Assembly (NCBI GenBank): GCA_017545165.1
Contig: JAFWQQ010000031.1
Span: 1 to 35,683, forward strand
Source of the DNA: Oscillospiraceae bacterium
GTDB taxonomy: Bacteria > Bacillota > Clostridia > Oscillospirales > Oscillospiraceae
Direction: 5' to 3'
DNA length: 35,683 bases
Position numbers and translations under genes: made by a program. Within the stretch, counting starts at the first letter, position 1. Every line of letters starts with the position of its first letter. The notes beneath the pieces were generated by a model that saw only the letters and a program-made list of their open reading frames with translations, was not told where the DNA came from and made no database searches. This document shows, in pieces, positions 3,922-20,097 of the stretch.

Positions 3922-3996
3922 TGGAGGCGCCACCCAGATTTGAACTGGGGAATCGAGGATTTGCAGTCCTCTGCCTTACCACTTGGCTATGGCGCC
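3922..3996 (-). tRNA. tRNA-Cys(GCA)
   Basis: The minus strand folds as a cloverleaf: acceptor GGCGCCA/TGGCGCC, anticodon stem GAGGA/TCCTC with loop CTGCAAA (anticodon GCA), T-loop TTCAAAT, discriminator T and an encoded CCA. It is the last gene of a four-tRNA transcript. Confidence 0.96.
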
Positions 3997-4002
3997 ATAT
4001 AA

Positions 4003-4029
4003 CATATGCGGGCGATCGGCCCGCATATG
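4003..4029 (-). other. Perfect hairpin spacer between tRNA-Gly and tRNA-Cys
   Basis: CATATGCGGGC, loop GATCG, GCCCGCATATG: an 11-bp perfect inverted repeat that fills most of the 40-base spacer. It has no T-run, so it is more likely an RNA processing or protective hairpin than a terminator. Confidence 0.75.
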
Positions 4030-4036
4030 GATTTTG

Positions 4037-4112
4037 TGGAGCGGGCAACGAGGCTCGAACTCGCTACCTCCACCTTGGCAAGGTGGCGCTCTACCGGATG
4101 AGCTATGCCCGC
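4037..4112 (-). tRNA. tRNA-Gly(GCC)
   Basis: The cloverleaf has acceptor GCGGGCA paired with TGCCCGC, anticodon stem CCACC/GGTGG with loop TTGCCAA (anticodon GCC), T-loop TTCGAGC and an encoded CCA. It is the third gene of the operon. Confidence 0.96.
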
Positions 4113-4117
4113 AGACG

Positions 4118-4134
4118 CCCCGCAGAATGCGGGG
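4118..4134 (-). other. Hairpin spacer between tRNA-Phe and tRNA-Gly
   Basis: CCCCGCA, loop GAA, TGCGGGG: a perfect 7-bp hairpin occupying most of the 22-base spacer. It parallels the hairpin in the next spacer. Confidence 0.7.
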
Positions 4135-4210
<76 letters not shown>

Positions 4211-4224
4211 ATATACAAACTATG

Positions 4225-4301
4225 TGGTGGGAACAACTGGACTCGAACCAGTGACCCCCTGCTTGTAAGGCAGGTGCTCTAACCAGCTGAGCTATGCTCC
4301 C
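4225..4301 (-). tRNA. tRNA-Val(TAC)
   Basis: The cloverleaf has acceptor GGGAGCA paired with TGTTCCC, anticodon stem CCTGC/GCAGG with loop CTTACAA (anticodon TAC), T-loop TTCGAGT, discriminator A and an encoded CCA. It is the first gene of the operon, directly after the promoter. Confidence 0.96.
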
Positions 4302-6937: not shown

Positions 6938-7840
6938 ATGGAATTCACACCGGGAGTGGTAGCTGGCATCATTGCGATCCTGGTTATCGTCGTCATCATC
7001 ATCCGGAACATCCGCATCGTCCAACAGGCAAGGGCATACGTCATTGAGCGTCTGGGCGCCTATAAGACCACCTGGAACGTGGGTCTGCACTTCAAGGTCC
7101 CCTTTATCGAGAAGGTGGCCAAGGTGGTGTCCCTGAAGGAGCAGGTGGCGGATTTCCCGCCCCAGCCCGTGATCACCAAGGATAACGTCACCATGCAGAT
7201 CGACACCGTGGTCTATTTCCAGATCACCGACCCCAAGCTCTACACCTACGGCATCGAGCAGCCCATGGTGGCTATCGAGAACCTGGCCGCCACCACCCTG
7301 CGTAACATCATCGGCGACCTGGAGCTGGACCAGTGCCTCACCAGCCGTGACATCATCAATACCAAGATGCGCTCCATCCTGGACGAGGCCACCGACCCCT
7401 GGGGCATCAAGGTCAACCGCGTGGAGCTGAAGAACATCCTGCCGCCCAAGGAGATCCAGAACGCCATGGAGAAGCAGATGAAGGCCGAGCGCGAACGCCG
7501 CGAAGCCATCCTCCGCGCCGAGGGCGAGAAGCGGGCCGCCATTCTGGAGGCCGAAGGCGAGAAGGAATCCGCCATCCTGCGGGCCGACGCCAAGAAGCAG
7601 CAGCAGATCCTGGAGGCCGAAGGCGAGGCCGAGGCCATCCTGAAGGTGCAGCAGGCTACCGCCGAAGGTATCCGGCTCATCAACCAGTCCGCGCCGACGG
7701 AGGCCGTCCTGCGCATCAAGGCGCTGGAAGCCTTTACCGCCGCTTCCCAGGGCCAGGCCACCAAGATCATCATCCCCAGCGAGATCCAGGGTCTGGCGGG
7801 CCTTGCCACCGGCATCATCGAGGCCAGCAAGGAAAAGTAA
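6938..7840 (+). CDS. Stomatin/SPFH-domain membrane protein (QmcA-like)
   Basis: A 300-residue protein with an N-terminal membrane anchor at residues 6-23, an SPFH/band-7 domain from about residue 25 to 190 (IERLGAYKTTWNVGLHFKVP, VTMQIDTVVYFQITDP, MRSILDEATDPWGIKVNRVE), then a long charged coiled coil in which EAEGE-type motifs recur (residues about 190-235) and a small C-terminal hydrophobic tail. Such proteins assemble into large cages or microdomains and often modulate FtsH-type proteolysis. It is preceded by AAAGGAGG and followed by a strong hairpin, so it forms a two-gene operon with nfeD. Confidence 0.93.
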   Translation: MEFTPGVVAGIIAILVIVVIIIRNIRIVQQARAYVIERLGAYKTTWNVGLHFKVPFIEKVAKVVSLKEQVADFPPQPVITKDNVTMQIDTVVYFQITDPKLYTYGIEQPMVAIENLAATTLRNIIGDLELDQCLTSRDIINTKMRSILDEATDPWGIKVNRVELKNILPPKEIQNAMEKQMKAERERREAILRAEGEKRAAILEAEGEKESAILRADAKKQQQILEAEGEAEAILKVQQATAEGIRLINQSAPTEAVLRIKALEAFTAASQGQATKIIIPSEIQGLAGLATGIIEASKEK

Positions 7841-7861: not shown

Positions 7862-7891
7862 CGGGCGCCCGAGAGGGCGCCCGAATTGTTT
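7862..7891 (+). terminator. Terminator after the SPFH gene
   Basis: A 9-bp GC-only stem (CGGGCGCCC, loop GAGA, GGGCGCCCG) is followed by AATTGTTTCTT. The T-run is interrupted, so termination strength is uncertain, but the next promoter starts two bases later. Confidence 0.75.
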
Positions 7892-7892
7892 C

Positions 7893-7921
7893 TTGCATTT
7901 TTCGCGGAGACATGCTAAGAT
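7893..7921 (+). promoter_or_regulatory. Promoter of the ABC-F leader
   Basis: TTGCAT (7893-7898), a 17-base spacer and TAAGAT (7916-7921) would start a transcript near 7928, leaving an approximately 220-base leader before the ABC-F start codon. Confidence 0.75.
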
Positions 7922-7952
7922 GCTTTCAGATAGAGAGAAGGGAGTTGGAAGG

Positions 7953-7973
7953 ATGAACCAGTTTTCCTGCTGA
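7953..7973 (+). CDS. Leader peptide MNQFSC
   Basis: A six-codon ORF (ATG AAC CAG TTT TCC TGC, then TGA) lies about 25 bases into the predicted transcript, preceded by a purine-rich GGGAGTTGGAAGG ribosome-binding site. Its stop codon ends three bases before the first arm of a leader hairpin. Short upstream ORFs of this kind in ABC-F and Erm genes sense antibiotic-stalled ribosomes; that role is inferred from the position and from the terminator downstream. Confidence 0.6.
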   Translation: MNQFSC

Positions 7974-7976
7974 TGG

Positions 7977-8131
7977 GACATAACAGCGCCAAGTGGCATG
8001 GACGGCGGCGCGGCCGTCTGTCTTGTTATGTCTGTTTGCGGGAAAGCACCGATCCTTTCGACGACTGTACGGACATAGCTATGCCCTTTTGTTGTTGGCT
8101 GCGGGAGCTTTCCTGCGGCCAATCTTTTTTT
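7977..8131 (+). promoter_or_regulatory. Attenuator leader with competing hairpins and terminator
   Basis: GACATAACA occurs at 7977-7985 and again at 8140-8148, where it joins the Shine-Dalgarno sequence to the ABC-F start codon. TGTTATGTC at 8024-8032 can pair with either copy, and a third partial copy is at 8072-8077. A terminator (stem 8095-8106 with 8111-8122, loop 8107-8110, T-run 8124-8131) lies directly before the ribosome-binding site. GCGGGAAAGC (8038-8047) can pair over ten positions, including a G-U pair, with GCTTTCCTGC (8107-8116), which would break that terminator. The elements are visible in the sequence; the switching order is inferred. Confidence 0.75.
8095..8131 (+). terminator. 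Leader terminator before the ABC-F gene
   Basis: A 12-bp stem with two G-U pairs (TTGGCTGCGGGA with TCCTGCGGCCAA), a 4-base loop and a run of T at 8124-8131. It sits only eight bases before AGGAGG at 8135-8140, which places it as a conditional rather than end-of-gene terminator. Confidence 0.85.
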
Positions 8132-8148
8132 GCTAGGAGGACATAACA

Positions 8149-9642
8149 ATGTCGTTGATTCAAGTATCCAATCTCACCTTTGCCTATGACGGCAGCTATG
8201 ACAACGTATTCGAGGACTTAAACTTTCAGATCGACACCGACTGGAAGCTGGGCTTTACCGGGCGCAACGGCCGGGGCAAGACCACCTTCCTGCGCCTGCT
8301 CCTGGGGCAGTATGCGTATCAGGGGACGATCACGGCCTCCGTGCGCTTCACCTATTTTCCCTGCGAGCCGAAGCACCCGGAATGGCTCTCCTGGGAAGCG
8401 CTGGAGGAGCTGGAGCCGGATCTGCCCCGGTGGAAGCTCCTGCGGGAGATGGCCCGGCTGGAGCTGGACGAGGAGGTCCTCTACCGCCCCTTTGAAACGC
8501 TCTCTCACGGGGAGCAGACCAAGCTCCTGCTGGCCCTGCTCTTCCTGCGGGAGAACGGCTTTCCCCTCATCGACGAGCCCACCAACCACCTGGACGCCCA
8601 CGGGCGCGAGGTGGTCAGCCGCTATCTCAACGGCAAGAAGGGTTTTATTCTGGTGTCCCACGACCGGGCCTTTCTGGACGGCTGCGTGGACCATATCCTG
8701 TCCATCAACAAGGCCAATATTGAGATCCAGCGGGGGAACTTCTCCTCCTGGTGGGAGAATAGGCGCCGGCAGGACGCCTTTGAGCTGGCGGAGAACGACA
8801 AGCTCAAAAAGGAGATCGGCCGCCTGCGGGAATCGGTTCGGGAGAAGGCCCAGTGGTCGGACACCGCGGAGAGCCGCAAGATCGGCAGAGACAAGGGCCG
8901 TGTGGAAAACGTGAAGGGCTGGCGTCCCCTCCAGGGAGCCAAGTCCAAGAAGCAGATGGCCCGGGCCATGGCCATCGAGAGCCGCCGGGCGGCGGCCATC
9001 GAGGAGAAGGAGCAGCTGCTGAAGAACATCGAGCATCAGGCGCCGCTGAAGCTGAGCCAGCCGGTCTACGCCAAGGAGCGGCTGCTGAGCCTGCGGGACC
9101 TGACCGTGGACTACGGCGCGGGGCCGATCTTCGAGCCGGTCAGCTTTGAACTGCTGCGGGGAGACCGCCTGGCCCTGCTGGGCCGCAACGGCAGCGGCAA
9201 GAGCAGCATCCTCAAGCTCCTGTGCGGCGAGGCCATCCCCCACGCCGGGCTGCTGGAAAAGGGGAGCGGTCTGAGCATTTCCTACGTACCCCAGGACCCG
9301 GGAAATCTGCGGGGCGACCTCTCGGACTACGCCAGGAAATACGGCGTCGACGAGAGCCTGTTCAAGGCCATCCTCATCAAGCTGGACTTTGCGAGAAAGC
9401 AGTTCGAGAAGGATATGGCGGAGTTTTCGGCCGGACAGAAGAAAAAGGTGCACATCGCCCGCTCCCTCTGTGAGACGGCTCATCTGCACATCTGGGACGA
9501 GCCCATGAACTACATCGACGTGATCTCCCGCATGCAGATCGAGGATCTGATCCTGCAGCACGAGCCCACCCTGCTCTTTGTGGAGCATGACCGGGCCTTC
9601 TGCCAGCGGGTGGCGACCAAGACGGTGGAGCTGAAGGAATGA
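8149..9642 (+). CDS. Lsa-type ABC-F ribosomal protection protein
   Basis: A 497-residue cytosolic protein with two ATP-binding cassettes and no membrane domain. Walker A motifs are GRNGRGKTT (38-46) and GRNGSGKSS (near residue 345); ABC signatures are LSHGEQ and FSAGQ; Walker B motifs are LIDEPTNHLD and LHIWDEPMNYID. The charged linker between the cassettes matches the P-site tRNA-interaction motif that reaches into the ribosome. The N-terminus MSLIQVSNLTFAYDGSYDNV and the length are those of the Lsa family, which displaces lincosamides, streptogramin A and pleuromutilins. The sequence cannot show which drugs, if any, this protein protects against. AGGAGG lies eight bases before the ATG, and the leader upstream suggests drug-inducible expression. 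An 8-bp repeat tract begins at the last codons. Confidence 0.92.
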   Translation: MSLIQVSNLTFAYDGSYDNVFEDLNFQIDTDWKLGFTGRNGRGKTTFLRLLLGQYAYQGTITASVRFTYFPCEPKHPEWLSWEALEELEPDLPRWKLLREMARLELDEEVLYRPFETLSHGEQTKLLLALLFLRENGFPLIDEPTNHLDAHGREVVSRYLNGKKGFILVSHDRAFLDGCVDHILSINKANIEIQRGNFSSWWENRRRQDAFELAENDKLKKEIGRLRESVREKAQWSDTAESRKIGRDKGRVENVKGWRPLQGAKSKKQMARAMAIESRRAAAIEEKEQLLKNIEHQAPLKLSQPVYAKERLLSLRDLTVDYGAGPIFEPVSFELLRGDRLALLGRNGSGKSSILKLLCGEAIPHAGLLEKGSGLSISYVPQDPGNLRGDLSDYARKYGVDESLFKAILIKLDFARKQFEKDMAEFSAGQKKKVHIARSLCETAHLHIWDEPMNYIDVISRMQIEDLILQHEPTLLFVEHDRAFCQRVATKTVELKE

Positions 9643-9680
9643 AGGAATGAAGGAATGAAGAAATGAAGAAATGAAGAAAT
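9633..9680 (+). repeat. 8-bp tandem repeat across the ABC-F stop codon
   Basis: Six units of eight bases: three GAAGGAAT followed by three GAAGAAAT. The ABC-F stop codon lies at the junction of the first two units. Because 8 is not a multiple of 3, copy-number change after the stop has no coding effect, but loss of the first unit would alter the C-terminus. Confidence 0.9.
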
Positions 9681-9706
9681 GAGGACGGATTTCGACGAAT
9701 TCCGGT

Positions 9707-9778: not shown

Positions 9779-10492
9779 ATGTTGACCTGTCATATCCTGC
9801 TGCTGGGCGGGGCTGTGGCCCTGGCCCTGTATCTGTCGGAGAAGCTGCGGCGCTATACGGTGAAGGCCGTGCTGCGCAAGGGGCTGGTCTCGGCCCTCTT
9901 CGTGACCCTGGCTGCCTGCGCCTGGTTTGTCTCCGCAAAGGACGGAGGACCGAAGATCCTTGGCCTGTTCGTTCTCGCCGGGCTGGTTTTCGGCCTGCTG
10001 GGGGACATTTGGCTGGACCTGAAATACGTCTTCCCCCAGGCGGACGAGCCTTTTACCTACGCGGGCTTTGCGTCCTTCGGGATCGGCCATGTGCTCTACT
10101 GCGCGGGTCTGGCCCTGCAGTTTGCCCTGCCGGGAAAGGCGGCCTGGATCTGGCTGCCGCTGCTTTTGGCCCTGGCCCTGGGGCTCAGCTCCATGGCGCT
10201 GGAAAAGCCTATGAAGCTGCGCTACGGCAGGTTCAAGCCCGTGGTAGCCGCATACAGCGCGCTGCTCTTTTCCACGGTGCTGCTCTCCGGCAGTCTGGCC
10301 CTTCTGCATGGCTGGGCCGAAAAGACGCTGGACCTCTTCTTCCTCGGCGCGATCCTCTTCGCCGTCTCCGACCTGATCCTCAGTGGCACTTATTTCGGCC
10401 AGGGGAGGGAGCGCCCCGTGGATCTGCTGCTCAATTATCTCACGTATTACCCCGCGCAGTTTTTGATCGCTTATTCTCTTTTGTATCTGTAA
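9779..10492 (+). CDS. YhhN-family integral membrane protein (lysoplasmalogenase-like)
   Basis: A 237-residue protein with about eight hydrophobic segments. The YhhN family pattern is present: GLLGDIWLDL (about residues 75-84), FASFGIGHVLYC, and FAVSDLILSG near residue 200, whose conserved Asp residues are proposed to be catalytic. Characterised relatives hydrolyse the vinyl-ether bond of lysoplasmalogens; plasmalogens are common in anaerobic clostridia, so the role is plausible but inferred. The ATG six bases after AAAGGAG is chosen; a longer frame upstream crosses the promoter. It leads a cluster with an unknown protein and two flavoproteins. Confidence 0.85.
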   Translation: MLTCHILLLGGAVALALYLSEKLRRYTVKAVLRKGLVSALFVTLAACAWFVSAKDGGPKILGLFVLAGLVFGLLGDIWLDLKYVFPQADEPFTYAGFASFGIGHVLYCAGLALQFALPGKAAWIWLPLLLALALGLSSMALEKPMKLRYGRFKPVVAAYSALLFSTVLLSGSLALLHGWAEKTLDLFFLGAILFAVSDLILSGTYFGQGRERPVDLLLNYLTYYPAQFLIAYSLLYL

Positions 10493-19824: not shown

Positions 19825-19996
19825 GCCTCCGTCCTTACCTGAGAGATTCCCTTCCGCCTTTGACGGCTTCCGGTTGCCCCTTTGGTGTGCGGGATGGCCC
19901 GCACTTTCCGAAGTGTCGTCCGGATCCGATCCTTTTGCCTGAGAGTTTTTGCATTCCCCTTCGGCGCCGCGGTCCACGCGGTCTCTCTCGGTATCC
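19825..19996 (-). promoter_or_regulatory. Tandem glycine riboswitch
   Basis: Two aptamers read on the minus strand. The first (about 19930-19996) has GAGAGAGACC, GCGCCGAAGGGG and CTCTCAGGCAAAAGGA; the second (about 19828-19920) has CACCAAAGGGGCAACC, GGCGGAAGGGAA and TCTCTCAGGTAAGGAC. These are the conserved glycine-aptamer core sequences, joined by a short linker. It controls serC, not a glycine-cleavage operon. Whether glycine turns expression on or off cannot be decided by eye. Confidence 0.92.
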
Positions 19997-20097
19997 TTCA
20001 TCCGACCCTGATTCAGTTTTTCCGTCCAGAAACCTGCACTTTCCGTGCATGCTGACCAAAAAACGCGGAATTCTCTCTGTGGATTTCGTACAGATCG

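Follow-up and report, generated by a model that had tools for sequence, protein, structure and literature searches.

The window analysed here, a stretch of 35,683 nucleotides from an Oscillospiraceae bacterium, holds an ABC-F gene behind a highly structured leader, which raises the question of how this leader might govern the gene and whether it would do so in transcription, in translation or in both. Lsa-type ABC-F proteins shield ribosomes from lincosamides, pleuromutilins and streptogramin A. The leader is in our judgement highly likely to be a ribosome-mediated attenuator of the ABC-F gene that acts at both levels. This reading is based on anatomy, conservation, covariation and spacing; we infer the drugs involved, the halting of the ribosome, read-through and the order of folding.

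The gene and the leader in the window

The gene lies directly downstream of the leader, an arrangement seen both in the window and in its relatives. The best model of its protein was that of Lsa (NCBIfam NF000167, 681.7 bits over residues 1-495), and the closest solved structure was LsaA (7nhk). As the score falls below the model cut-off of 750 bits the protein is called Lsa-like here; the term Lsa-type used in the initial annotation therefore stands as a statement of resemblance. Scored against the model of ribosomal protection-like ABC-F proteins (NCBIfam NF000355) the protein reached 439.1 bits, above the cut-off of 380. Upstream of the leader is an SPFH/Band 7 gene (6938-7840) followed by a terminator of its own (7862-7883), and downstream of the ABC-F gene is a YhhN-family gene (9779-10492). 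A short repeat (GGAATGAA, then GAAATGAA) at 9630-9682 spans the ABC-F stop codon and contains overlapping ATGA start-stops.

The six-codon upstream open reading frame (uORF) of the initial annotation was recovered by direct reading of the sequence (ATG at 7953 to TGA at 7973, MNQFSC), as were the terminator hairpin of 13 pairs with its T run and the antiterminator arms A2 (GCGGGAAAGC) and A4 (GCTTTCCTGC), which form ten pairs including one G-U (Table 1). The duplicated start-site sequence GACATAACA was likewise present, at 7977-7985 and 8140-8148, but the first copy lies 4 nt past the uORF stop and not at the end of the uORF, where it had been placed. Its complement TGTTATGTC, at 8024-8032, can indeed be paired with both copies, and the full pairing of B2 with the lsa start amounts to ten pairs (8023-8032 with 8140-8149). 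No further copy of GACATAACA or TGTTATGTC occurs in the whole window. When the start region was held fixed and the leader was shuffled for 20,000 rounds with dinucleotides kept, a copy of a start-region 9-mer arose in 0.15% of the shuffled leaders, a complement in 0.44% and both together in 0/20,000.

Complementarities absent from the earlier account were also found, namely of uORF codons 4-6 (A1) to A2, of E to the uORF ribosome-binding site and, in gapped form, of D to the lsa start region 8132-8153. A1 to B1 and A4 to S form one repeated pattern, and the stretch B2-A2 in between can be paired with either. The anti-antiterminator (A1:A2), antiterminator (A2:A4) and terminator, as potential pairings in the sequence, are mutually exclusive. 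The leader folds better than its shuffles (z -5.3; 0/200 shuffles as good). The promoter candidate upstream is weak, since a consensus promoter scan passed none.

Table 1. Features of the leader and the gene, with positions in the window
Feature	Position	Strand	Description or basis
Candidate promoter	7893..7921	+	TTGCAT, 17 nt, TAAGAT preceded by TG; by eye
uORF ribosome-binding site and start	7944..7954	+	Covered by E in the repressed fold
uORF MNQFSC	7953..7973	+	Sequence; one in each of 138 parsed relatives, but parsing demanded a uORF
A1	7961..7970	+	uORF codons 4-6, 5' arm of the anti-antiterminator; pairing and covariation
B1	7977..7985	+	GACATAACA past the uORF stop, copy of the lsa start site; partner of B2
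Apical hairpin	7998..8021	+	Between B1 and B2; covariation of a hairpin at this place in relatives, on a model-fitted alignment
B2	8023..8032	+	Partner of B1 or of the lsa start site S
A2	8038..8047	+	Partner of A1 (repressed) or of A4 (antiterminator)
E	8052..8062	+	Partner of the uORF ribosome-binding site
D	8072..8092	+	Partner of the lsa start region across the terminator
Intrinsic terminator	8094..8131	+	Hairpin 8094-8123 and T run; A4 (8107-8116) in its 3' part
S	8135..8151	+	Shine-Dalgarno, then a spacer holding the second GACATAACA, then the start codon
Lsa-like ABC-F ribosomal protection gene	8149..9642	+	497 aa

Related leaders and the genes behind them

A covariance model of the leader, R1, was built from 39 leaders out of fetched upstream regions. 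It was matched in 82/300 genomes of the same family and 65/295 of the order (E up to 0.1), and in 35/391 genomes of the class and 19/299 of the phylum (E up to 0.003), in tallies that include the window genome and the seed members, come from overlapping draws and rest on a many-genome scan that misses some weak matches. The initial annotation had named loss of the pairing arms and the uORF among relatives as grounds against its proposal; what was found were matching leaders at all four ranks. In its own genome the window leader is the sole R1 match. An Lsa homologue is carried by 82/300 genomes of the family (E up to 1e-60), and of the 60 family genomes in which a leader was matched at E 0.0011 or better, 59 also carry the homologue, the two lists having been compared by hand. 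The sixtieth (G118) has two leader copies at contig ends, one of them before a partial homologue. No leader match at this E value was obtained in 23 of the 82 homologue-bearing genomes, among which there were some contig ends and some regions without such a leader.

A strong Lsa-like match was found downstream of the leader at 74 of the 92 loci examined, a count that includes the window and repeats earlier loci. Of the remaining 18, 14 were weak model matches (E 0.002 or worse), two ran into contig ends (L179 and L237) and one showed a short Lsa-like fragment only (L228). At the last, L207 (1050-1680, minus strand), a leader with terminator is present without an ABC-F gene, and other reading frames follow; a putative membrane transporter frame, noticed by eye, lies further down, past a very short frame at the position of the lsa start. 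Among class and phylum loci, 39/43 had an Lsa-like gene of 47-61% identity. At L276 the leader stands directly before another ABC-F gene, whose protein has 25% identity to that of the window and is matched by NF000355 at 400 bits, then by the Msr and CplR models. No Lsa-like gene is visible after the leader at L296, while L283 and L289 show an Lsa-like start from which no frame of 120 codons begins.

The leader was also found before lsa(E), a gene on an Enterococcus faecium plasmid (L298, 224-333, 71.7 bits, uORF MYNFSC), in this case with about 150 bases from terminator to gene start, and further carriers included assemblies of Clostridiaceae and Ruminococcus (L003, L006) as well as a Monoglobus plasmid, at 65.4 bits. 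Compared with plasmids at the DNA level, the window leader itself had no relative; the three matches covered 33-37% of the query and all fell in its coding end. A search of Rfam gave no match at the leader, the only hit being on the opposite strand at 13.1 bits (E 2.2), far below the gathering score. As judged from sequence matches, the leader is an RNA family spread through the phylum and nearly always placed before Lsa-like ABC-F genes; this one family, outside Rfam, precedes such genes in many families of the phylum as well as the plasmid-borne lsa(E).

For tests of pairing, 131 regions were parsed, made up of 87 gene-first regions without L155, which has no gene start, plus 45 more. Parsing failed in 18, manual inspection took out 12 that were mis-parsed or belonged to another type, and one of the same genus (L083) was removed by score, which left 100. 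Addition of 39 later regions, of which L297 failed, gave 138 leaders, and 117 after removal of near-copies; five class matches were left out. These 138 do not sample the leaders at random, because most order, class and phylum regions were chosen via a model match.

Pairings and a candidate switch

Covariation across relatives, a check suggested in the initial annotation, supports A1:A2, for which 28 doubly changed cells were counted against 7.6 in shuffles (0/500 reached) on an alignment made without structure. When 75 leaders, 74 of them outside the seed, were aligned to R1, 109 doubly changed cells were obtained against 29.3 over two helices, although this alignment leans to the model. In the set of 117 leaders, partners from the same leader scored higher than swapped ones both for A1:A2 (20.6 vs 16.9) and for A2:A4 (22.2 vs 17.5), with 0/5,000 swaps reaching the observed value in either case; both tests are favoured because the leaders were picked partly by these pairings.

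E, D and B2:S played no part in the selection of leaders. Swapped-partner tests mix in genome base composition, and B2:S and D were therefore retested with dinucleotide shuffles. Pairing of E with the uORF ribosome-binding site clearly exceeded its shuffles (16.6 vs 13.6, z 13.2; controls z 1.8 and -2.1), and so did that of D with the lsa start S (16.1 vs 14.2, z 8.6, 117 leaders), which includes long helices built from differing letters, for example in L105, L088, L218 and L279. D likewise scored above its shuffles when set against coding bases +24 to +44 (z 5.3), which correspond to roughly codons 9-15 of the ABC-F gene. The statistics for D, E and B2 are rough, because discarding near-copies removes kinship only in part and because D, first noticed as a supposed control in the B2:S swap test, was then tested on the same leaders. 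On these scores the stronger translational lock of the family is predicted to be D around the terminator, B2:S being weaker and patchy. The dual control proposed initially for drug-stalled ribosomes thus keeps its attenuator with uORF, terminator, antiterminator and pairings touching both levels, but its stronger translational lock would be D, with B2 as the weaker one.

In the absence of drug, the uORF would be translated and the ribosome released, upon which A1:A2 and B1:B2 would form and E would close the uORF start, such that A1:A2, B1:B2 and the pairing of E make up one long hairpin. The terminator would then form, and D:S would keep the lsa start shut in any read-through RNA. A drug that halts the ribosome at the start codon or the first codons, expected to be a lincosamide, a pleuromutilin or streptogramin A, would leave A1 covered and B1 free, and the freed A2 could pair with A4, undoing the terminator. 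Since A2:A4 and D:S would cross, A2:A4 would release the lsa start as well.

The spacing within the leaders fits such an early halt. Counting from the A of the uORF start as +1, A1 ends at +18 to +20 in 121/138 leaders, a spread narrowed by the parser, which sought A1 only within 20 bases after the uORF start, and B1 starts beyond +22 in 125/138. For vmlR, an initiating 30S toeprint 16 nt downstream of the A of the start codon and a reliance of induction on arrest during initiation are described in the portions of PMC9226507 drawn on here. A ribosome at the first codons would therefore cover most of A1 and leave B1.

In unforced equilibrium folding A2:A4 had a value of 0.00 in the window, whatever its state, and averaged 0.13 or less in relatives, and forcing it in the window cost about 4 kcal/mol (-70.4 vs -74.2); the switch must therefore be kinetic. 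With masks alone, equilibrium folds of the window showed no switch and the terminator won in every state, for which reason the folds with A2:A4 forced show compatibility and not events. Once A2:A4 was imposed and the uORF masked as far as +16, the openness of S rose by more than 0.05 in 62/117 leaders and fell by as much in 24/117, the loss of D:S on forcing A2:A4 being built in since the folding program permits no crossing pairs.

Alternative readings and known systems

The uORF peptides bear on two other ways in which a leader of this kind could work. Peptides end in SC in 70 of the 138 leaders, the commonest type, and in SCK or SCR in 30, and these 100 could be taken to suggest an amino-acid attenuator that senses a shortage of serine or cysteine through its Ser-Cys codons. 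However, 22/138 uORFs have at most three codons (for example MRK, MRN or MK), lack Ser-Cys and carry the arm past the stop codon, some other leaders have a uORF that runs through the arm in a different frame (MISFLA, MRILIA), and the cysteine codon is TGC in 108/108 cases, as the pairing needs; the regulated gene, moreover, is ribosome-protecting. Starvation sensing is thus very improbable and was rejected on account of the short uORFs, the shifted frames and the invariant TGC. The ending in Ser-Cys looks like a side effect of the sequence of the RNA arm. A nascent peptide whose own sequence is required for stalling by the drug would agree with the residue preferences seen in 100 leaders (Arg 51 and Ile 23 at residue 2, Asn 36 and Lys 16 at residue 3) and with the sequence of the vmlR uORF, which is said to matter for lincomycin induction in the part of PMC10201436 considered here. 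The final residues, however, go with the RNA arm, and the peptides are of many kinds; we hold such an arrest to be quite improbable, and in the parsed leaders the RNA arm seems to count more than the peptide sequence.

The duplicated start site allows for a further layer on top of the attenuator, in which B1, B2 and S would check the position of the ribosome. After an early halt only A1 would be covered, B1 would hold B2 and S would be free; with the ribosome at the uORF stop both A1 and B1 would be covered, and transcription would read through but B2 would take S and switch translation off. Folds of the window with A2:A4 imposed shift accordingly, from 12.2 pairs of B1:B2 and 0.7 of B2:S with S 37% open (mask to +16) to 10.5 pairs of B2:S with S 18% open (mask to +31), as compared to S being 21% open in the repressed fold. 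An earlier RNAduplex test of B2:S, run on 54 leaders, gave no more than a suggestive result (p 0.01). Among the 117 leaders, B2:S scored 18 or more in 14 against about 4 (4.1) expected by swaps, and B2 with the lsa start exceeded its shuffles (12.8 vs 12.1, z 3.4), while with three other target windows z was between -0.6 and 0.9; in the swap test other targets were mildly raised, +4 to +24 giving 5 against 1.7 at 18 or more (all 138, p 0.02). B1 lay inside the footprint of a ribosome at the stop in 18/21 leaders with B2:S at 16 or more and in 60/96 others (Fisher p 0.04), a comparison that was devised after the idea and uses assumed footprint borders. Against a position check, 96/117 leaders score below 16; the window leader is one of the 21 that reach it, and about half of these 21 may be chance, 9-11 being expected. 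In the window without forcing, a ribosome at the stop closed S no further than an early one (38% vs 34% open). Between start and stop, S became less open in 9 of the 21 leaders and more open in 2, compared to 23 and 17 of the other 96. We consider a position check possible but rather unlikely. A proposal modelled on it, that B1 is a start-site decoy through which an early halt would free the real start and a ribosome at the stop would free the anti-start B2, silencing the read-through message, such that only drugs blocking the first peptide bonds induce, is to us unlikely. That the GACATAACA copies and B2:S are instead coincidence or a relic, with only A1/A2/A4, E and D of importance, has a chance not far short of even given the same low scores and the number expected by chance; it sits poorly with the failure of shuffled window leaders to yield copy and complement together and with L084, L098, L105 and L214, where the B2:S pairing is kept in other letters.

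Whichever of these holds for B1, the attenuator has clear counterparts. Leaders of the same working type have been published for vmlR, cplR, msrD, vga, lmrC and others, as far as the portions of the literature used here go. That of vmlR in Bacillus subtilis likewise has a short uORF in an anti-antiterminator stem, an intrinsic terminator, an antiterminator that becomes available once a ribosome halts at initiation, and a stem partly covering the Shine-Dalgarno of the gene; it differs in its three-codon uORF, MIN, and in a separate SL-4 and NusG-dependent pausing, and the sections of PMC9226507 relied on mention no copy of the start site behind the uORF. The cplR leader of Clostridioides difficile shares the uORF in a 5' hairpin and the terminator, but its uORF reads MR[I/M] and its terminator stem itself covers the Shine-Dalgarno, whereas the Shine-Dalgarno in the window lies past the T run, where D would cover it; transcriptional and translational control of cplR was shown by reporters, while the window leader is known from sequence (PMC10201436, in part). 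In Enterococcus a uORF also precedes the LsaA gene, with a predicted consensus of MAGN in contrast to the mostly M...SC peptides, plus MRK/MK, of the present family (same excerpt of PMC10201436). The msrD leader, too, places an ABC-F gene under a drug-stalled leader but senses macrolides (PMC10314930, in part).

Open-licence papers, a body that leaves many journals outside, yielded no Lsa leader of this kind, and for Lsa only the predicted MAGN uORF of LsaA in the consulted part of PMC10201436. Because leaders of the vmlR and cplR type are published and an Lsa leader of this kind was not found in these papers, we take the present one to be a new and widespread version of known attenuation. This version seems to guard the gene start with more than one RNA lock, and it provides a defined element for studying how early halting could be told from other translation stress.

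Other RNA elements were noticed elsewhere in the window, both on the minus strand: two adjacent glycine riboswitch aptamers at 19827-20000 and a cluster of four tRNA genes at 3925-4301.
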